Of a stretch of DNA of 22,788 nucleotides, positions 3,242 to 9,314 are shown one piece after another. Every line of letters starts with the position of its first letter. Position 1 is the stretch's first letter. This stretch comes from a virus. The notes under the pieces were generated by a model. It searched no databases and was not told where the DNA came from. It was given only the letters and a program-made list of their open reading frames with translations. Both the position numbers and the translations under genes were made by a program. The stretch lies in IMG/VR virus record IMGVR_UViG_3300031772_000304, positions 1 to 22,788 of that record. One strand, 5' to 3'.

Positions 3242-4189
3242 ATGGCAGACGTAAAGAATATTGATAGTGTATTAATGAAAGATATGGCAGATAAAGCGGC
3301 TGGTGTTGATAATTCGGCTGCCTATATTCCTGAAATGTCTCACGATGAAGTGAAAGTAGAAGAACCTGTTAAAGAAGAATCTGTTAAAGAAGAATCTGAA
3401 TCTTTACCTGAAATCGGTCAAGAAGAGTCAACATCTAGTGAACAATCCAGTGAAAATGAAAAATCCCGTGAAAAATCTAGTGAAAAATCTAAAGATTCAC
3501 CTATTGATGAGTATGGAAACCCTATTGAAAAACCTAGACTATATACTGAAGAAGAATTACAACAAAGAATTAGGGATAGATTATCCAGAGGTAAACATTC
3601 GGAACCACAATATCAACCAGATAATCAATATCAGCAACCTCAGCAATATCAACCAAATCAACAGCAAGTTCAGCAAGCTCAAGATTCAGGTTTTCAGCAT
3701 AATCCAGAAAGCGAACAATCTTGGGAAGATCAGTTATCTCAATTTATTGATAACAGACTAGAACAAAGACAAACGAAAGCGGCCGAGCAACAATGGAGAC
3801 AGCAAGAAGCTGCTAAACAAGCTGAATTTGAAAGTAAATTTTCATCTGGAATGGGAAAATATCAAGACTTTCATCAAGTAGTTGCTGGAAAACCTATTAC
3901 TGATACCATGATGATGGCTACAAGAAGCTTAGAAAATCCCGCTGCTTTTGTTTATGCTGCTAGTAAACTTCATCCTCAAGAGATTGAGAGAATATCAAGG
4001 ATTTCAGATCCTTACGCTCAAGCGTCGGAAGTTGGAAGATTACACGAGAAAATGGTGAAAGAGCGAAGAATGGTTAGCGCTGCCGCTAAACCAATCGAAC
4101 CCGTTAAAAGCGATATGCCAAGTAAAAGTTATCATACATCGCCTATTGATCAGCGAATTGCTCAACATGCCAAGAGTAAAGTAAGGTAA
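3242..4189 (+). CDS. Capsid scaffolding protein, P22 gp8-like
   Basis: At 315 residues it is close to P22 gp8 (303). Scaffold proteins co-assemble with coat and portal inside the procapsid and leave before DNA packaging. The sequence is low-complexity and highly charged, as usual: an acidic Glu/Ser-rich stretch at about residues 30-85, then YTEEELQQRIRDRLSRG at about 100-117 (an arrangement often seen in phage scaffolds), then a Gln/Pro/Tyr-rich linker to about 150. A helical part follows, and the C-terminus is basic (QRIAQHAKSKVR), which in P22 is the coat-binding end. The start ATG 3242 has aagga at 3228-3232. Position after the portal strongly supports the call. Unlike P22, the coat gene does not follow directly but lies about 3.8 kb away. 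Confidence 0.8.
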   Translation: MADVKNIDSVLMKDMADKAAGVDNSAAYIPEMSHDEVKVEEPVKEESVKEESESLPEIGQEESTSSEQSSENEKSREKSSEKSKDSPIDEYGNPIEKPRLYTEEELQQRIRDRLSRGKHSEPQYQPDNQYQQPQQYQPNQQQVQQAQDSGFQHNPESEQSWEDQLSQFIDNRLEQRQTKAAEQQWRQQEAAKQAEFESKFSSGMGKYQDFHQVVAGKPITDTMMMATRSLENPAAFVYAASKLHPQEIERISRISDPYAQASEVGRLHEKMVKERRMVSAAAKPIEPVKSDMPSKSYHTSPIDQRIAQHAKSKVR

Positions 4190-4277: not shown

Positions 4278-4433
4278 ATGCCAATTCCAGGTGATAATGG
4301 TAATCCAAAGTTAGAGAAAAGACAGCAAGAAGAAAGAATCAGTGAAGTTGCTAATACGGGTGCTTATGTACAGAAGGAAGTTAAGATGAATCCTCCTGCA
4401 CCTAAAGAGAAATGTATTTTTGGAGAAGTATAA
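4278..4433 (+). CDS. Small hypothetical phage protein (51 aa)
   Basis: ATG 4278 is preceded by an aggag at 4265-4269 with good spacing, and the frame stops at 4431-4433. The 51-residue product begins MPIPGDNGNPKLEKRQQEER and has a charged helical first half, a Pro-rich segment (MNPPAPKEK) and one Cys. No family is recognised. It opens a run of six small, tightly packed genes between scaffold and the terminator at 5497. The next start follows its stop after two bases, so the two are probably translationally coupled. Confidence 0.65.
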   Translation: MPIPGDNGNPKLEKRQQEERISEVANTGAYVQKEVKMNPPAPKEKCIFGEV

Positions 4434-4435
4434 TC

Positions 4436-4606
4436 ATGAAAAAGAATGGCGTAGATTACGATGAATGTTGCTATAAAGAAATGACCAAGGGTGTTGGCGG
4501 GCAATCTCAACCATCTGAATGTTGGGATGAACCTATGCGTAATGCTTGGGAAAATGCTAAGCCTATGAGTAATGGTTATGATCAATCAGGGATGAAAGGA
4601 AAGTAA
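4436..4606 (+). CDS. Small cysteine-containing hypothetical protein (56 aa)
   Basis: An in-frame ATG at 4412 exists, but the ATG at 4436 is preferred. It has ggag at 4422-4425 about ten bases upstream and does not overlap the preceding gene. The 56-residue product has a Cys pair and a third Cys (DECCYKEM..., ECWDEPM) and is rich in Gly, Lys and Met. The Cys residues could bind metal, but the spacing fits no motif I know. It lies two bases after the previous stop and two bases before the next start, within one operon. Function unknown. Confidence 0.6.
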   Translation: MKKNGVDYDECCYKEMTKGVGGQSQPSECWDEPMRNAWENAKPMSNGYDQSGMKGK

Positions 4607-4608
4607 TA

Positions 4609-4728
4609 GTGGAAGAAATAATGCCATCTATTACTTTGTTTCTTTGTTTTGTATTTGTTGATGTGCTTATTATTGCATTTATTATATTACTGATACAGTT
4701 TTTAGTAGGAGCTATTAGAAATGGATGA
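4609..4728 (+). CDS. Single-pass membrane peptide
   Basis: This 39-residue ORF runs from GTG 4609. The in-frame ATG 4621, with ggaag at 4611-4615 just upstream, would give 35 residues and is equally plausible. After a short polar start the whole product is hydrophobic (ITLFLCFVFVDVLIIAFIIL and onward) and ends in a short positively charged tail (AIRNG), suggesting one membrane helix with its C-terminus inside. It overlaps the next gene by 8 bases, consistent with coupling. Tiny one-helix phage proteins can be holin-like or superinfection or morphogenesis factors, but there is no lysis gene nearby and no assignment is possible. Confidence 0.5.
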   Translation: MEEIMPSITLFLCFVFVDVLIIAFIILLIQFLVGAIRNG

Positions 4729-4927
4729 TTACTATAGTCAGTCAAAAGTTGCTTACGAAACCTCACCTAAGGAAGTTAATCACAAACGTGGATTAAATAA
4801 TGGTGATAAACAGTTCGGCAATGCAGATAAGATGCCTCAAGAAAATAAAGGTTACAAGCAGAAAGAATATAAAGCAAATCCTGTTGGGTTAGATTTGGGT
4901 AATAGAAAATACAAGGAGCATCGATAA
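4721..4927 (+). CDS. Small basic hydrophilic hypothetical protein (68 aa)
   Basis: ATG 4721 is preceded by aggag (4707-4711) and overlaps the membrane peptide by 8 bases. Its stop shares a base with the next start (TAATG). The 68-residue product (MDDYYSQSKVAYETSPKEVN...) is hydrophilic, Lys/Asn/Gly-rich and probably disordered, with no recognised domain. The tight packing, regular ribosome binding sites and operon position support a real gene. Such short disordered proteins in late operons may be minor virion or assembly components, but this is not shown here. Confidence 0.65.
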   Translation: MDDYYSQSKVAYETSPKEVNHKRGLNNGDKQFGNADKMPQENKGYKQKEYKANPVGLDLGNRKYKEHR

Positions 4928-5199
4928 TGCCGTTAAAGAAAGGAACAGGAAAGAAAACTATTAGTTCTAATATTAAAAAAGAAATGTCCGCTGGGAAACC
5001 TCAGAAACAGAGTGTAGCTATTGCATTGAATGAAGCTAGAGAGTCAGGTGCTGATATCCCTAAGAAAAAAAGTAAGGATAAACCTAAACCTAAATCAAAA
5101 CGAAAGATGGTTAAGAAACCTAAGATGGAAAAGAAAGAAATGTCACATGTTTCTGACAAGAAGATTAGTGATTATGGTAAAAAGAAAGGAAAGTATTAA
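4927..5199 (+). CDS. Lysine-rich DUF6496-like small protein
   Basis: This is a 90-residue, strongly basic protein. The first half (MPLKKGTGKKTISSNIKKEM, then AGKPQKQSVAIALNEARESG) matches a short conserved pattern widespread in phages and some bacterial genomes that I recall as DUF6496, of unknown function. The second half is a Lys/Pro-rich tail (KPKPKSKRKMVKKPK), probably disordered and suited to nucleic-acid contact. Start and stop both overlap neighbours by one base (TAATG on both sides), so translation is likely coupled. The proteins could coat or neutralise DNA inside the capsid, but that is inference. Confidence 0.7.
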   Translation: MPLKKGTGKKTISSNIKKEMSAGKPQKQSVAIALNEARESGADIPKKKSKDKPKPKSKRKMVKKPKMEKKEMSHVSDKKISDYGKKKGKY

Positions 5200-5498
5200 T
5201 GACTGAAAAACCTAGAATAGATTTATTGGATCATGTAATTATAGTCAATAAATTACAAAATAGAATAGAAAAACTTGAAGAACATAAAAACCGTCAGATA
5301 GATGAGAACAGGAAAATCAATAGAAAAGTTGATGAATTAGAATATAAAACAGACTTCATCATGAAGCGATGTAAAATAATGGTTGATAATATAAATGCGA
5401 ACTTCTATACCATCCAGAGAGTAATGAACGAAAATGGTGAAGCCGAAGAAGACGAAGAGCCACCATTTTGCCGAACATGCGGCGGAAACCATGGCTAA
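5199..5498 (+). CDS. Coiled-coil protein with C-terminal Cys/His cluster
   Basis: This is a 99-residue protein. Residues about 10-50 form a clear coiled-coil pattern (VNKLQNRIEKLEEHKNRQ...), and the rest is helical with an acidic stretch (GEAEEDEEPP). The last ten residues, FCRTCGGNHG, place two Cys and a His as C-x2-C-x3-H, resembling part of a zinc knuckle without the final Cys; metal binding is possible but unproven. It is the last gene of the plus-strand run: its TAA at 5496-5498 overlaps the first bases of a strong terminator hairpin. No family recognised. It could be a small scaffold-like or regulatory factor. Confidence 0.65.
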   Translation: MTEKPRIDLLDHVIIVNKLQNRIEKLEEHKNRQIDENRKINRKVDELEYKTDFIMKRCKIMVDNINANFYTIQRVMNENGEAEEDEEPPFCRTCGGNHG

Positions 5499-5556
5499 CC
5501 CTATAGTTATTAAATCGACATATCATAAAGACGTGTCGATTTGATAGGGTTTTTTC
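5497..5556 (+). terminator. Long rho-independent terminator ending the portal-scaffold operon
   Basis: Two nested stems are visible. The outer stem is aaccctat (5497-5504) with atagggtt (5544-5551), and the inner stem is aaatcgaca (5512-5520) with tgtcgattt (5534-5542). A T run follows at 5550-5555. The T tract makes it a plus-strand terminator. The hairpin lies between convergent genes and may also slow transcription from the minus side, though no good T tract exists in that direction. An 11-bp direct repeat (tatagttatta) flanks it at 5502-5512 and 5563-5573. Confidence 0.85.
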
Positions 5557-5570
5557 GACATATATAGTTA

Positions 5571-5843
5571 TTACTTATTACCCTTAATGATCTCTTGATC
5601 AAAATGCTTGGCGAAAGGCTGAGTAGGTTTGCTGTATTTATCTTTAGGTGTTAACACTATATTCTTAACATTCTCATTCTCATCAATATTGACTTCTTTA
5701 AACATTAATTTCCCTTCCTGAAGGTCTTTAAACATCTCTTTAAACTTAACTTGTTCAGAAGGTAATAGAGTATTCCAGAGGGTTACAGCTTCCGCTTGAG
5801 ACATTTTTGGTTGAGGAGTGTTTTTTAAGTTTGTTCTAGACAT
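5571..5843 (-). CDS. Small hypothetical protein of the minus-strand island
   Basis: The ATG with complement at 5841-5843 is chosen because it has ataaggtg (complement of 5850-5857) six bases upstream. A longer GTG start at 5852 would lie inside that ribosome binding site. The product has 90 residues: a polar N-terminus, a helical middle (AEAVTLWNTLLPSEQVKFKE), and a C-terminal part with beta-like character and a basic tail. No membrane segment, no recognised family. It is the last gene of the minus-strand run and faces the plus-strand terminator region. Its upstream neighbour ends 15 bases before, suggesting one transcript. Confidence 0.65.
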   Translation of the reverse strand: MSRTNLKNTPQPKMSQAEAVTLWNTLLPSEQVKFKEMFKDLQEGKLMFKEVNIDENENVKNIVLTPKDKYSKPTQPFAKHFDQEIIKGNK

Positions 5844-5858
5844 TTTTATCACCTTATC

Positions 5859-6104
5859 CTATTGCTTAACTATATATCCTAATACCGCTATCATTATACT
5901 AATAATAAACGTACATCCTACTACAAGAGAGCCTAATTTTATAATCATTTTGTTCTCTAAATGGGTTAAATCTTGCTTGGTTGCTATGTCTGTATTTAGA
6001 ATATTCTGTAGTTCTCCCGCGTGTACTTCTGCTAGATTCTGGTTCAAACCGCAATCTCTTAGACGTTTTTGGAAATCTATAGCGTTATAGCGGATCGTTG
6101 ACAT
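5859..6104 (-). CDS. DUF1640-like coiled-coil protein with C-terminal membrane anchor
   Basis: This is an 81-residue protein of known architecture. The N-terminal helical segment (STIRYNAIDFQKRLRDCGLN) is followed by LATK-type spacing (DIATKQDLTHLENKM), a short coiled coil, and a hydrophobic helix at about residues 58-79 (LVVGCTFIISIMIAVLGYIV). This resembles DUF1640/CCDC90-type short proteins often found in phages and mobile elements, whose function is not established. The start ATG at 6104 has aaaggga (complement of 6114-6120) nine bases upstream. Membrane location with the coiled coil inside is inferred. A homotrimeric coiled coil is plausible from related proteins. Confidence 0.7.
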   Translation of the reverse strand: MSTIRYNAIDFQKRLRDCGLNQNLAEVHAGELQNILNTDIATKQDLTHLENKMIIKLGSLVVGCTFIISIMIAVLGYIVKQ

Positions 6105-6139
6105 TTAGTGAAATCCCTTTGGGTGGTTTATGTTATTTT

Positions 6140-6448
6140 CTAGTGTTTTTTATCATTGCAAAATAGTGATTCCATTTTAATTATATATTTTAATCCTTCC
6201 TCTGATGATTGCATTATGTGTTTGAATAAAGCTAATCTAGATTTTTCATTTGCATTAGAGGAGGCGATTAATGCTGGTATAAGTGTAGTCATTGAGGTAT
6301 TCACAATTCCCATCATTACATTTATCGGTATTTCTTTAAATTTTTCATCTTTATTAAATTTATTGCATGTTTCCATTAGCAATTTACTTAAATCTTCTGA
6401 CATATTTAAATATACTTCATCTTGAGACTGGTCGTGTTTTTCATTCAT
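6140..6448 (-). CDS. Hypothetical helical protein (102 aa)
   Basis: The start ATG at 6448 is preceded by only a weak ribosome binding site (gga about 13 bases upstream). The product has an acidic N-terminus (MNEKHDQSQDEVYLNMSEDL) and is then mostly helical with a moderately hydrophobic middle (VNTSMTTLIPALIASSNAN). The C-terminal part reads like a helical hairpin ending in a basic tail. No family recognised, and no clear transmembrane helix. A candidate -10 box and several short repeats lie in the 100 bp upstream, so this may be the first gene of a three-gene minus-strand unit (6448 down to 5571). Confidence 0.6.
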   Translation of the reverse strand: MNEKHDQSQDEVYLNMSEDLSKLLMETCNKFNKDEKFKEIPINVMMGIVNTSMTTLIPALIASSNANEKSRLALFKHIMQSSEEGLKYIIKMESLFCNDKKH

Positions 6449-6550
6449 TTATTATTAATTCCATTCTGTATTACAGATTACGTTATATTACGTTATTTGT
6501 AATGGATTATACTCACTTTTTAGTATAAATAGTTATATCGATAACAGATA
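6449..6550 (-). promoter_or_regulatory. Repeat- and dyad-rich control region of the minus-strand genes
   Basis: The 102 bases between two minus-strand genes contain a perfect tandem 10-bp repeat (attacgttat at 6477-6486 and 6487-6496), a palindrome tctgta-t-tacaga (6465-6477), a dyad gttat/ataac (6532-6545) and a dyad tatact/agtata (6508-6513, 6522-6527). The minus strand reads a perfect TATAAT (complement of 6506-6511) about 60 bases before the ATG at 6448, but no good -35 hexamer is seen at normal spacing. Such a cluster suggests a regulated, possibly activator-dependent promoter. Confidence 0.4.
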
Positions 6551-7318
6551 TTATTGATTGTTATGTTCTATTTCATAAATTAATTTCATAATAGGATAGA
6601 CTGCCTGTGGAACGACAGAATTTCCTATTGCTTTTATTCTATTTTTGTCCATCCTATTGGATATCCCATCATCATTTCGCACAATTCTGGTGTTAAACTC
6701 AATCCAGTTTTCACTTTGACTAGTCGGCCAAGTGATAGGGATGAATTTTTGCCATTCTTCGTATATCTTCTGTATGTGCCAGTTGAGGTGGTTTTTATTA
6801 TATCTGTCTTTGCTATAACTGATCCTGCACTTGCGTCGCTTGCGGTAATTGTTGGCAACAATAAATAACCTTTCTCTCTTGTGTGGCGCAAAACAACCTG
6901 AAGCCGGTATAATAAATGATTGGGTAGAATATGAACTTTTTCGAAGCGACGAAATAATCTCATTGTAGGAAATTGATAAAATTCCAGTAACATTTTCGAC
7001 AATAACCCAATACGGCTTTGTTTCTTGTATGACACGAAGCATTTCAGGCCACAAGTATCTATCATCTTCTTTTCCTTTTCTTTTTCCTGCAATACTAAAT
7101 GGTTGACATGGAAAACCGCCAGTTAATATCATTATTGGTTCTTTTTCTTTATATGAAAATGTCTTTATATCATCATGTATCGGTACGTTAGGCCAATGTC
7201 TTCTTAATACCTTTTGGCAGAATTTATCGTTTTCAACGAATTGAACGGGTTTAAATCCTGCCCATTCACCAGCAATAGAGAATCCACCTATACCTGAAAA
7301 GAGATCTAAAATTTTCAT
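6551..7318 (-). CDS. C5-cytosine DNA methyltransferase, 3' half readable in two frames
   Basis: A 255-residue enzyme of the C5-methyltransferase family, which transfers methyl from S-adenosylmethionine to cytosine in a specific DNA site. Visible motifs: I (LDLFSGIGGFSIAGE, residues 4-18), IV with catalytic Cys71 in GGFPCQPFSIAG, VI with ENV at 108-110, VIII with HKRERLFIVA at 146-155, and X with GNSVVPQ at 232-238. The full set suggests an active enzyme. There is no restriction endonuclease gene beside it, so an orphan phage methyltransferase protecting phage DNA is likely. Oddly, between motifs VIII and X the +1 frame also encodes family-like sequence (LPTITASDAS... and MMGYPIGWT); see findings. 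The target-recognition region may therefore be frameshifted and specificity changed. Its ATG shares a base with the stop of the gene upstream (TAATG), implying coupled translation. Confidence 0.9.
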   Translation of the reverse strand: MKILDLFSGIGGFSIAGEWAGFKPVQFVENDKFCQKVLRRHWPNVPIHDDIKTFSYKEKEPIMILTGGFPCQPFSIAGKRKGKEDDRYLWPEMLRVIQETKPYWVIVENVTGILSISYNEIISSLRKSSYSTQSFIIPASGCFAPHKRERLFIVANNYRKRRKCRISYSKDRYNKNHLNWHIQKIYEEWQKFIPITWPTSQSENWIEFNTRIVRNDDGISNRMDKNRIKAIGNSVVPQAVYPIMKLIYEIEHNNQ

Positions 7319-7677
7319 TACAATATAACTCCTGCATCTCTAATACCTTTAATAACCATCCTTACACAATCTCTATGACCTTGAATGGCATCTTTGTATG
7401 ATGTATACCTCTCTTGATAATAATTAAGTTCTAGAATATCACTATTGAAAAATATCATTGTTTCAAACAATACTGGATTTTTAGATTTACCTGATATATC
7501 CCAATTATGATCAAGTCCTAAAAAGACAGTTGATATAGTAGCGCTATACTTATGAAGATTAGTAAACTTAATAGTTTTAGAGCCATTAGAAATTGCTTTA
7601 GTAAGCCAGTTAGCCCATAAATCTTGGGTGACTGAGTATGGAATTTTGTTTTGATCGAGTAAATAGAATAGCGACAT
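7318..7677 (-). CDS. Conserved small phage protein of unknown function
   Basis: This 119-residue product contains the segments STVFLGLDHNW and PVLFETMIF, followed by YQERYTSYKDAIQGH. I recall this combination from a widespread family of small phage proteins of unknown function, in which a 'TVFLGLDH...LFETMIF...ERY.T...A..GH' pattern is typical. The start ATG at 7677 has aaaggaag (complement of 7687-7694) nine bases upstream. It is the first gene of the minus-strand run, and its stop overlaps the methyltransferase start by one base. No catalytic motif or membrane segment is evident; the family is usually cytosolic. The longer frame that starts at 7760 in another phase is a shadow. Confidence 0.7.
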   Translation of the reverse strand: MSLFYLLDQNKIPYSVTQDLWANWLTKAISNGSKTIKFTNLHKYSATISTVFLGLDHNWDISGKSKNPVLFETMIFFNSDILELNYYQERYTSYKDAIQGHRDCVRMVIKGIRDAGVIL

Positions 7678-7720
7678 ATAGATACACTTCCTTTGGTGGT
7701 TAAGATTTTCCTTCTTTTTA

Positions 7721-7799
7721 CTATATAAACATAAGCAAACCAGGCTGAGAAGGACTTCAACTTTTCGGGAATGACCCTAGGTTTGCTATATAAAGCATA
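7721..7799. repeat. Hairpin element with 8-bp inverted ends and flanking direct repeats
   Basis: Perfect inverted ends agcaaacc (7734-7741) and ggtttgct (7780-7787) enclose 38 bases. Inside are two further potential stems with almost no linkers: gagaag (7747-7752) with cttttc (7761-7766), and ggg (7767-7769) with ccc (7775-7777). Together these give a compact three-way junction if transcribed. Near-identical direct repeats lie on both sides: ctatataaacata (7721-7733) and ctatataaagcata (7786-7799). It could be a structured RNA or a tiny mobile element with target duplication. I recognise no known RNA family or element. Confidence 0.5.
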
Positions 7800-7832: not shown

Positions 7833-7862
7833 TTGATTGTAAATGGCGAAATAGTGCATAAT
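7833..7862 (+). promoter_or_regulatory. Sigma-70-type promoter candidate for the coat gene
   Basis: A TTGATT -35 (7833-7838) and a CATAAT -10 (7857-7862) are separated by 18 bases, close to consensus. Transcription would start near 7869 and produce a leader of about 120 bases before the coat ATG. It is needed because the preceding plus-strand operon terminates at 5556 and the intervening genes run the other way. Called from sequence only. Confidence 0.45.
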
Positions 7863-7870
7863 ATATTCAA

Positions 7871-7933
7871 TTAGCGCGTATTGTATGGTTTCCGCTAAGC
7901 CAAGATAGGCGCGTAATTAAGTCTCCCGCTTAG
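7871..7933 (+). promoter_or_regulatory. Coat-gene leader with repeated unit and mutually exclusive hairpins
   Basis: An imperfect tandem duplication of about 34 bp is visible: gcgcgta recurs at 7874-7880 and 7909-7915, and ccgctaag/ccgcttag at 7892-7899 and 7926-7933. One stem pairs ttagcg (7871-7876) with cgctaa (7893-7898). A second pairs ctaagc (7895-7900) with gcttag (7928-7933). The two share bases 7895-7898 and cannot form together. This could be a switchable leader, an mRNA-stabilising structure, or a tandem binding site for a protein. No known riboswitch motif is seen. Confidence 0.4.
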
Positions 7934-7990
7934 ACAAAGAAATAAATGGAATTTAATTTATCTTTGTTTATACGACAGGAGTCTCATATT

Positions 7991-9244
7991 ATGAGCTTTT
8001 CAGGGAATACATTTGAAGTTACGCAATACGTTTTAGACGAAACATTCATTCGCTTTATCAACTACCTTAATTTTGCCAAAGTTGCAAATCGTAACCTTGA
8101 AGGTGACTTCAAAGGGTTAAAGTATGCTACAGGCCAAACAATCAACTATCGTTTAGAAGAAAGATATCTAGGCGGTGAAGGTGCTACGGCAACTTCTGAA
8201 GCTCGCGTTCAAATAATTCGCCCACTTACTATTGAAAAGCAATTCAACACAATGGTTGAGTTTTCTGGGTTTGAACTGACATTTGATCGTGCACGTGATC
8301 AACCATACTTGGACATGATGCTTAACCCAAGAGCTAAGAGATTAGCTAATAAAGTTGAACAATTCATTGCTAATACAAAGTTTCAAAAACAAACATATCA
8401 AGCTTATGGTACGCCTGGCGTTGCTTTATCTAGAACGGATGTCTTCCAAACAGATGCTTATATGACTGAATTAGGCATTCCTGAAGACGGAAATCGTTAT
8501 TGGGCGAATCCTCCTTCAATCTCCGCTACTTTGGCTGATGATCTATCCAATGTATTTAACATGACTGTTAACCGCGGTGCATTGTTGGATGGTTTTATTG
8601 GTCATTTGTCAGGTTTTGATTTCTTTAAAACGAACTTCTTAACACGACAAATTGCTGGTGTTGGTCAAGCTGCTGGTGCACCTCCAACGGGTTACCGATT
8701 AGGTGGAACAGTAACAAACGGTCCTATTACTGGTGGTAGCACGATTTCGGTGACTGGTTTGGTAGCTTCACAACCATTTGCATTTAGAGAAGGCGATATC
8801 ATTACAATTGCTGCTGCTTCTAATGTCTTTATGGTTAATCCATTGACTTATGAACCATTGGCACAAACAGCTCAATTTGTTGTAACTGCTGATGTTGCAT
8901 CTACAGTTGGCGGCACTGCAAACATCCCTGTCAGTCCTACAATTGTGATCTCTGGCGCAAGACAAAACATCTCTGCTGCTATTCCTAATGGCGCGCAGGT
9001 ATTGCTTGCTCTTAATCATAACGTATCTATTGCTTTCCATAACCAAGCCATTGTGTTTGCTGCTCCTCCAATCAAAGAATTGAAGGGTGGTGTAGATGCA
9101 GTTACTTCTTATAGTGACCTCTACAAAATGGCGATGACGTACTCCTTGGGTGCTGATATCCGTAACTACCTTCAATTAGATCGTGTTGACGTAATTTGCG
9201 GTGTAGCTATTAACCCTGAGTTTGCTGTACGAGTAATGTCATAA
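7991..9244 (+). CDS. Major coat protein, P22 gp5-like
   Basis: With the start at ATG 7991 it has 417 residues, near P22 coat (430). It would form the icosahedral shell around scaffold. An in-frame ATG at 7946 would add 15 residues but lacks a ribosome binding site, whereas 7991 has aggag nine bases upstream. Residues about 113-127 (RAKRLANKVEQFIAN) resemble the P22 coat helix RKLANNVELKVAN. The segment from about residue 225 to 330, including REGDIITIA and VNPLTYEPL, is beta-rich and corresponds in place to the inserted I-domain of P22 coat. The gene has its own promoter candidate and a terminator downstream, suiting very high expression. Separation from the scaffold gene by an island is unusual. 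Confidence 0.88.
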   Translation: MSFSGNTFEVTQYVLDETFIRFINYLNFAKVANRNLEGDFKGLKYATGQTINYRLEERYLGGEGATATSEARVQIIRPLTIEKQFNTMVEFSGFELTFDRARDQPYLDMMLNPRAKRLANKVEQFIANTKFQKQTYQAYGTPGVALSRTDVFQTDAYMTELGIPEDGNRYWANPPSISATLADDLSNVFNMTVNRGALLDGFIGHLSGFDFFKTNFLTRQIAGVGQAAGAPPTGYRLGGTVTNGPITGGSTISVTGLVASQPFAFREGDIITIAAASNVFMVNPLTYEPLAQTAQFVVTADVASTVGGTANIPVSPTIVISGARQNISAAIPNGAQVLLALNHNVSIAFHNQAIVFAAPPIKELKGGVDAVTSYSDLYKMAMTYSLGADIRNYLQLDRVDVICGVAINPEFAVRVMS

Positions 9245-9280
9245 GTTCTTAGGTTATAGAAAGAAAGAGCACTTCTTTAG

Positions 9281-9314
9281 GGGGTTCATTTTATCCGATG
9301 AACTCCTTCTTTTT
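9281..9314 (+). terminator. Rho-independent terminator after the coat gene
   Basis: ggggttcat (9281-9289) pairs with atgaactcc (9298-9306), nine base pairs including one G-U, with an eight-base loop and a T-rich tract ttcttttt (9307-9314). A weaker stem aaagaa/ttcttt lies just upstream (9260-9278). No promoter is evident after it, so partial read-through probably feeds the downstream genes and keeps coat mRNA in excess. Confidence 0.8.

Follow-up and report, generated by a model that had tools for sequence, protein, structure and literature searches.

An accessory-gene hot spot between phage scaffold and coat genes, next to a coat gene with its own predicted promoter and tandem-pseudoknot leader RNA

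In phage P22 the coat gene directly follows the scaffold gene, and the proportion of scaffold to coat in tailed phages is usually explained by one late operon. Accessory genes, some of them on the opposite strand, are found within late regions, as in the immI region between genes 16 and 9 of P22 and in phage morons. The subject here is the interval between scaffold and coat in a virus fragment of 22,788 nucleotides (nt), IMG/VR virus record IMGVR_UViG_3300031772_000304, positions 1-22,788 (called the window, at its full length). Comparison with relatives, an uncultured group of P22-like phages, indicates that this interval is a hot spot where accessory genes turn over around a small core, and that coat appears to stand beside it as a transcription unit of its own, headed by a predicted leader RNA of two tandem pseudoknots. 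Unlike immI and the morons, the site described here separates scaffold from coat, falls into two sectors and abuts an autonomous coat unit.

Related arrangements have been described for single elements of this locus. The autogenous operator of gene 32 in T4 and RB69, which encodes a single-strand DNA-binding protein, is a pseudoknot of about 28 nt beside unstructured UUAAA repeats (PMC535899). The coat leader resembles it in that the leader of a phage messenger RNA (mRNA) has a pseudoknot, supported here by covariation, ahead of its ribosome site, and differs in having two tandem units plus a hairpin, a coat protein gene downstream, other conserved loop bases and a protein partner that is only putative. 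The homing endonuclease gene segG of T4 has entered the gap before the gene 32 leader, much as endonuclease VII genes stand before coat here (PMC535899). The put RNA of HK022 is a structured RNA directly behind a phage promoter and likewise has two units; its two stem-loops with a triplex are found at two early promoters, whereas the coat leader has crossing helices, occurs once per record and precedes a structural gene (PMC9378689). Finally, an endonuclease VII-type homing endonuclease, F-CphI, is already known (PMC6083498). Recurring free-standing genes of this family adjoin a conserved gene in both cases, although homing at the present locus is suggested by family and position only.

A sequence-only reading of the window had noted that scaffold and coat lie 3.8 kilobases (kb) apart, separated by six small plus-strand genes, a terminator and a minus-strand run with a methyltransferase. 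It had proposed a separate promoter and terminator for coat and had taken the whole for a moron insertion site that demands independent control of the two genes. The observation itself is confirmed by PHROG and Pfam matches and by the folding of the hairpin (z -3.97), and the interpretation is partly supported. On the plus strand the window carries portal, scaffold, the six small genes and a strong hairpin; five minus-strand genes follow, and then coat. Coat relatives align from about residue 16 of the listed open reading frame (ORF), where an ATG stands behind AGGAG, and the coat start was therefore moved from 7946 to 7991. With the scaffold gene ending at 4189, coat is thus separated from scaffold by 3,801 nt and does not directly follow it as in P22.

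Relatives were collected by viral contig scans with coat, scaffold and portal and by a fourth scan with a divergent coat. The coat searches returned the best 80 of 269 and the best 80 of 104 candidates, so that all frequencies given here describe this sample. The 189 loci with coat leaders were reduced to 128 non-redundant ones, and in 100 of these the stretch with the leader also has scaffold upstream. Across these 100 loci (individual loci are denoted by L numbers) the gap ranges from 149 to 8,768 nt, being below 350 nt in 33, 350-1000 nt in 31, 1-3 kb in 16 and at least 3 kb in 20; the shortest is about the length of the promoter plus leader. The gap holds an ORF in 64 loci and a minus-strand ORF in 39. 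Clustering of the 402 island ORFs of at least 45 amino acids gave 199 clusters, of which 153 are singletons. The site is therefore filled in some relatives and empty in others, as expected of a hot spot and at odds with the possibility that all relatives share one ancestral arrangement.

The variable contents have an order. In the 28 islands that have at least three ORFs and use both strands, the strand switches 50 times, compared with 114.2 times in shuffles. The island opens with a plus-strand ORF in all 28, and in 24 the ORF nearest to coat is on the minus strand. On a coat tree of 98 rows, which has no outgroup root and leaves 40 of its 95 inner branches (forks) open, all members of the window's 13-member group (support 98) have mixed-strand islands of 1.9-6.6 kb. 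This group lies within a clade of 39 (support 100), 31 of which have a gap above 1 kb, as do 5 of the 59 members of the sister clade, and the fewest changes that the tree needs are 9 for a gap above 1 kb and 15 for the presence of a minus-strand ORF. The earlier notion of a moron insertion site thus holds in so far as the site is variable. In the strict sense a moron brings its own promoter and terminator; of such signals the window has the strong hairpin between its plus-strand and minus-strand genes, and across the islands 6 of 14 junctions of this kind have a hairpin terminator, against 13 of 70 shuffles. It fails as a one-step event, since four plus-strand genes and one minus-strand family, m1, are common to 12-23 loci and every member of the 13-member group has a mixed-strand island, the rest being turnover. 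That a single ordinary moron brought the coat promoter along fits the opposite-strand cargo, the methyltransferase and the variable content; this account is nonetheless very improbable, because relatives with gaps of 149-350 nt have the same promoter and leader and the gene core on both strands is common to several loci.

The elements of the proposed coat unit in the window, with the scaffold gene at the other end of the interval, are as follows.

3242..4189, plus strand: head scaffolding protein gene (PHROG 8865, E 4.2e-9)
7833..7862, plus strand: proposed coat promoter, TTGATT at 7833-7838, 18 nt, CATAAT at 7857-7862; its place is fixed relative to pseudoknot 1 in relatives
7871..7902, plus strand: predicted pseudoknot 1 of the coat leader; helix S1 7871-7876 with 7893-7898, helix S2 7886-7889 with 7899-7902
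7907..7935, plus strand: predicted pseudoknot 2 of the coat leader; S1 7907-7911 with 7927-7931, S2 7921-7924 with 7932-7935
7934..7967, plus strand: predicted hairpin P3, 7934-7940 with 7961-7967; in relatives, the corresponding hairpin shows covariation at its inner pairs
7974..7983, plus strand: putative mini-hairpin GAC-AGGA-GTC containing the Shine-Dalgarno sequence, proposed from sequence with weak covariation (columns 135-143, z 3.1)
7991..9244, plus strand: major coat protein gene, start corrected (PHROG 283 major head protein, E 2.3e-41)
9279..9308, plus strand: terminator-like hairpin 3' of coat

The promoter and terminator can be recognised by comparison of relatives. In the window by itself, a sigma70-like scan gave 26 sites against 31.4 expected and a terminator scan gave 4 sites against 3.8 in shuffles, no excess in either case, so that the case for a coat promoter rests on the relatives and this part of the sequence-only reading stands by comparison but could not be demonstrated from the window. 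For this purpose 124 of the 128 leaders were eligible (coat identity of at least 60%, L019 and L061 excluded), of which 106 could be aligned on unit 1 and 115 on unit 2, 18 and 9 respectively having no anchor. In the 106 leaders aligned on unit 1, TTGACA (at least 5 of 6 bases) peaks at -40, -39 and -38 of pseudoknot 1 (16, 18 and 16 leaders) and occurs in 0-4 leaders at other offsets, except for 11 at -5, inside the first stem. TATAAT-like hexamers peak at -16 and -18 (27 and 14 leaders, against 0-9 elsewhere). Hexamers like the -35 and -10 elements thus lie about 17 nt apart at fixed places before pseudoknot 1, which puts the predicted start at the first stem. Behind coat, a terminator-like hairpin is found in 80 of 121 relatives and in 107 of 605 shuffles; among the examples looked at, such as L003, L009, L016 and L034, its loop is often CATCC.

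The same sigma70-type promoter and leader RNA stand upstream of coat in relatives that have gaps of 149-350 nt and no island. The coat unit is therefore independent of the island, and independent control of coat is not a consequence of it, contrary to the earlier reading. On the unrooted tree, the simplest reading is that the coat unit would be older than the island.

The sequences upstream of coat are alike far beyond the range of the island, and what they appear to share is an RNA structure. Without any sequence constraint, a second non-overlapping H-type pseudoknot scoring at least 20 was found in 56 of 75 leaders and in 31 of 375 dinucleotide shuffles. A pairing count over 53 sequences gave 84% paired against 74% and a covariation of 0.426 against 0.241; none of 500 shuffles reached either value, and slid versions gave at most 0.112. 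A whole-leader alignment (A2) mixed two registers in unit 2, and pairs were instead counted on unit-by-unit alignments built from sequence with no structure assumed. There the top covarying columns are the two crossing helices of each unit and hairpin P3, with z values of 10.3, 8.6, 7.8 and 6.6 in unit 1 (n = 106), 16.2, 13.5, 4.8 and 4.7 in unit 2 (n = 115) and 15.1, 8.2 and 6.7 in P3. In unit 1, S1 is paired in 89.9% against 70.4% when shuffled and S2 in 71.5% against 52.0%; in unit 2, S1 is paired in 99.1% against 81.5% (its pairs in 115, 115 and 112 of the 115 sequences) and S2 in 84.3% against 75.5%, so that S2 is the weaker helix in both. P3 is paired in 88.5% against 69.2%. The loop motif GNGTA is present in at least two copies in 108 of 124 leaders, compared with 32 of 1240 shuffles and 15 of 1142 random windows; since anchoring on GNGTA forces those bases to be invariant in the alignments, their real frequency is 115 of 124 leaders. 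A scan of 94 coat leaders gave 122 units bearing the motif. A further 14 occur outside these leaders, in 3.2 million strand-bases, and 7 of those 14 belong to coat leaders that the length cut had excluded or that stand behind an intron.

These patterns bear on the nature of the motif. A repeated element that overlaps a promoter region could be a DNA operator with repressor or activator sites. The stems, however, vary with compensatory changes in which G-U is tolerated and A-C is rare (17 to 0 in S1 of unit 2, 27 to 9 in S1 of unit 1), and the 17 G-U combinations without a single A-C in unit 2 fit RNA in the sense of coat rather than a DNA site. Crossing pairings would moreover be meaningless for DNA half-sites, and the units stand 3' of the -10 hexamer, on one strand only. 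An operator in DNA is accordingly the least credible of the explanations weighed, with hardly any probability left to it.

A covariance model built from 53 second units matched 35 of 40 phage records, nine of them with both units, and 44 of its 45 matches lie in sense within 330 nt upstream of coat, the remaining one having an E value of 0.81. In the window this model, made from second units only, found pseudoknot 1 at 25.9 bits (E 2e-4); pseudoknot 2, whose sequence is itself part of the model, scored 28.4 bits. A looser DNA pattern scan of viral contigs was also tried. It gave 101 stretches, among which the 75 new loci (L208-L282) comprised 16 coat leaders and 59 other places; as only 2 of the 59 exceed 28 bits when rescored with the covariance model, both of them leaders at the end of a stretch, the loose pattern finds mostly chance matches. 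The leaders of L013 and L026 appear, by eye, to have three or more pseudoknot-like units. The foot of P3 (7934-7967) overlaps the last two bases of pseudoknot 2 (7907-7935), and the two may compete, forming a possible switch. Rfam (4227 families) gave no leader match in the window or six relatives at E values up to 1, nor at the gathering cut-off in the window or seven further loci, and searches of the open-licence PubMed Central (PMC) literature turned up no paper in which a phage coat gene has a leader of tandem pseudoknots. Such a leader is thus apparently undescribed so far.

The two units of the leader come directly after the predicted start, and putL of HK022 lies just downstream of its promoter, with two stem-loops and a triplex in about 70 nt and pairing from transcript base 3 (PMC9378689). 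The principal rival account is a put-like antiterminator, in which the nascent pseudoknots bind RNA polymerase for read-through past the terminator-like hairpin that stands right after coat in most relatives and into the tail genes, the coat promoter being the real late promoter for head and tail. HK022, however, has two put sites at two promoters (PMC9378689), while there is one site per record here (35 of 40). The separate covarying hairpin beside the ribosome site points to translation, and the leader matches no Rfam family, though put may not be among those 4227. This account is considered unlikely. A less improbable suggestion, though still a tentative one, is that the leader merely stabilises the message by hiding its 5' end and has no regulatory partner. 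The first stem begins 5-8 nt after the -10 hexamer in 66 of 106 leaders, and structured 5' ends are reported to stabilise bacterial mRNAs, since both RppH and RNase E require a single-stranded 5' end (PMC3997798). A repeated unit with the same loop bases and a hairpin at the ribosome site, on the other hand, exceed what a cap needs. The confidence given to the rivals overlaps with that in the preferred explanation, mRNA protection being part of it.

That explanation, an accessory hot spot beside an autonomous coat transcription unit whose leader controls the life or translation of coat mRNA, is regarded as probable. Gene turnover and the positions of promoter, pseudoknots, hairpin and terminator are supported by the comparison of sequences, and control of mRNA life or translation would be, by analogy, the likeliest role of the leader. 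Several observations weigh against it. The coat tree has open forks and no outgroup root, and hairpin terminators show a weak excess at the plus/minus junctions. The model fails to recognise the leader in 5 of 40 records. S2 of unit 1 is poor in places, with one column pair paired in only 52 of 106 sequences, and the full set of core pairs in both stems is present in 70 of 106 first units and 91 of 115 second units. As there is no loop between the 3' strands of the two helices (S1b and S2b), S1 and S2 may alternate rather than coexist. In the window itself no more than 9 of the 12 coat promoter bases agree with consensus, and the best -35 hexamer has at most 3 of 6 in 37 of the 106 relatives (13 with 2, 24 with 3). 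The transcription start is predicted from the position of this promoter, and the terminator after coat is compatible with read-through into the genes downstream.

The island itself consists of the following features in the window.

4278-4433, 4436-4606, 4609-4728, 4721-4927, 4927-5199 and 5199-5498, plus strand: six small genes
4609-4728, plus strand: the third of these, a hydrophobic product of 39 amino acids
4927-5199, plus strand: the fifth of these, DUF6496 / PHROG 2423
about 5497-5551, plus strand: hairpin followed by T's, putative terminator of the plus-strand block; it folds on the other strand too (plus -22.1 kcal/mol, z -3.97; opposite strand -20.7, z -4.48)
5571..5852 (ATG at 5843), minus strand: m1, a family without assigned function, with homologues in relatives
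5859-6104 and 6140-6448, minus strand: two small genes
6551..7318, minus strand: C5 cytosine DNA methyltransferase, 255 amino acids (Pfam C-5 cytosine DNA methylase, E 3.4e-44; TIGR00675 dcm above cut-off)
7318..7677, minus strand: accessory gene, 119 amino acids, with homologues in three other islands in both orientations
7720..7787, minus strand: int-alpA RNA (RF02996), which lies in the leader of the minus-strand run (40.0 bits, curated cut-off 35.8)

Four of the six plus-strand genes form the plus-strand core of the island. Among the 100 loci, the first has homologues in 23, the second in 20 and the fourth and fifth (one joint cluster) in 18, always on the plus strand. The family m1 has 12 homologues in the same loci, all on the minus strand; searches of Pfam (at its cut-off), NCBIfam and the phage collection found nothing like it, and its predicted structure (mean predicted local distance difference test, pLDDT, 69; predicted template modelling score, pTM, 0.41) was judged too weak for a fold search. 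Among 126 sequences compared, the gene at 5859-6104 has a single other homologue (L082) and that at 6140-6448 has none. The methyltransferase has homologues in the islands of L041 (minus strand) and L081 (plus strand), making three islands with the window, and the 119-residue protein in L079 (minus) and in L010 and L020 (plus). In L006 and L007 a relative of the island methyltransferase lies upstream of the portal gene rather than in the island. Other cargo includes an endonuclease VII family, a Band 7 protein, a collagen-like protein, an exonuclease and a replication-initiator-like protein, and the island of L034 holds two transfer RNA genes on the minus strand (8861-8933 and 8942-9012).

The endonuclease VII family, an assignment that Pfam confirmed for 6 of the 11 members, is present in 11 islands, on the minus strand in 10 and as the last gene before coat in 9. 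Group I introns lie at the start of the coat gene in L019 (9741-9954) and L061 (10067-10287). In L055 and L057 the tblastn coat matches are also longer than usual. The int-alpA RNA exceeds its cut-off in 6 of 44 records (among them the window, L304, L305, L306 and L111), and an endonuclease VII family gene lies directly downstream at four of these six places, as it does behind a match below the cut-off in L061 (L308); in the window and in L003 the gene that follows is not of this family. The int-alpA RNA may thus serve as a leader of mobile endonuclease genes. Judging from family and position, we infer that these endonucleases would drive insertion, and homing at coat would explain the repeated entry of genes at this site.

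Eight recorded P22-like phages, with coats 25-29% identical to that of the window, were also compared. In seven of them the preceding gene on the same strand ends 8-29 nt before coat; it is annotated as scaffold in three of the seven, and in the others it has no name or an odd one. The eighth has an annotated minus-strand ORF before coat. None of the eight gave a leader match better than E 1.6. Searches of the open-licence PMC literature yielded nothing usable on an insertion site between scaffold and coat or on autoregulation of P22 scaffold. One genome contig scan returned three contigs labelled Gammaproteobacteria, Alphaproteobacteria and Bacteroidales, and because of these divergent labels no host is claimed.

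Taken together, these observations suggest how such a site could arise and be maintained. In the coat unit, a sigma70-type promoter would be followed by a leader of some 120 nt, built from two tandem H-type pseudoknots and a hairpin just ahead of the ribosome site, then by coat itself and, in most cases, by a terminator. As the unit also stands where nothing else separates scaffold and coat, the coat message would need no read-through from scaffold, and genes on either strand could accumulate in the gap without cutting coat off; it is probably this self-sufficiency of coat that makes the site tolerant of insertions. Small plus-strand genes would fill the scaffold side, where they may be co-transcribed with scaffold up to the terminator, and minus-strand genes, often homing-type endonucleases, would fill the coat side, divergent from the coat promoter. 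Transcription would start at or a few bases from pseudoknot 1, so that the 5' end of the coat mRNA would be held in structure and should be shielded against 5'-end-dependent decay. A regulatory site that tunes coat translation could be formed by the conserved loop bases, the doubling of the unit and the ribosome-site hairpin. A bolder and rather doubtful proposal is that the leader belongs to a new class of cis-regulatory RNA. Its tandem pseudoknots, at the extreme 5' end of a monocistronic coat mRNA, would bind free coat or scaffold and in this way tie the making of coat to procapsid assembly; this would take the place of the balance that the operon provides in P22 and so leave the gap free for insertion.

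For the biology of these phages, the whole clade appears to have moved coat into a unit of its own, headed by a conserved tandem-pseudoknot RNA. Control of a capsid protein at the RNA level would thereby become directly testable with a short reporter. The locus also offers a possible reason why a hot spot forms at one particular interval, namely that the gene downstream of it may already be self-sufficient.

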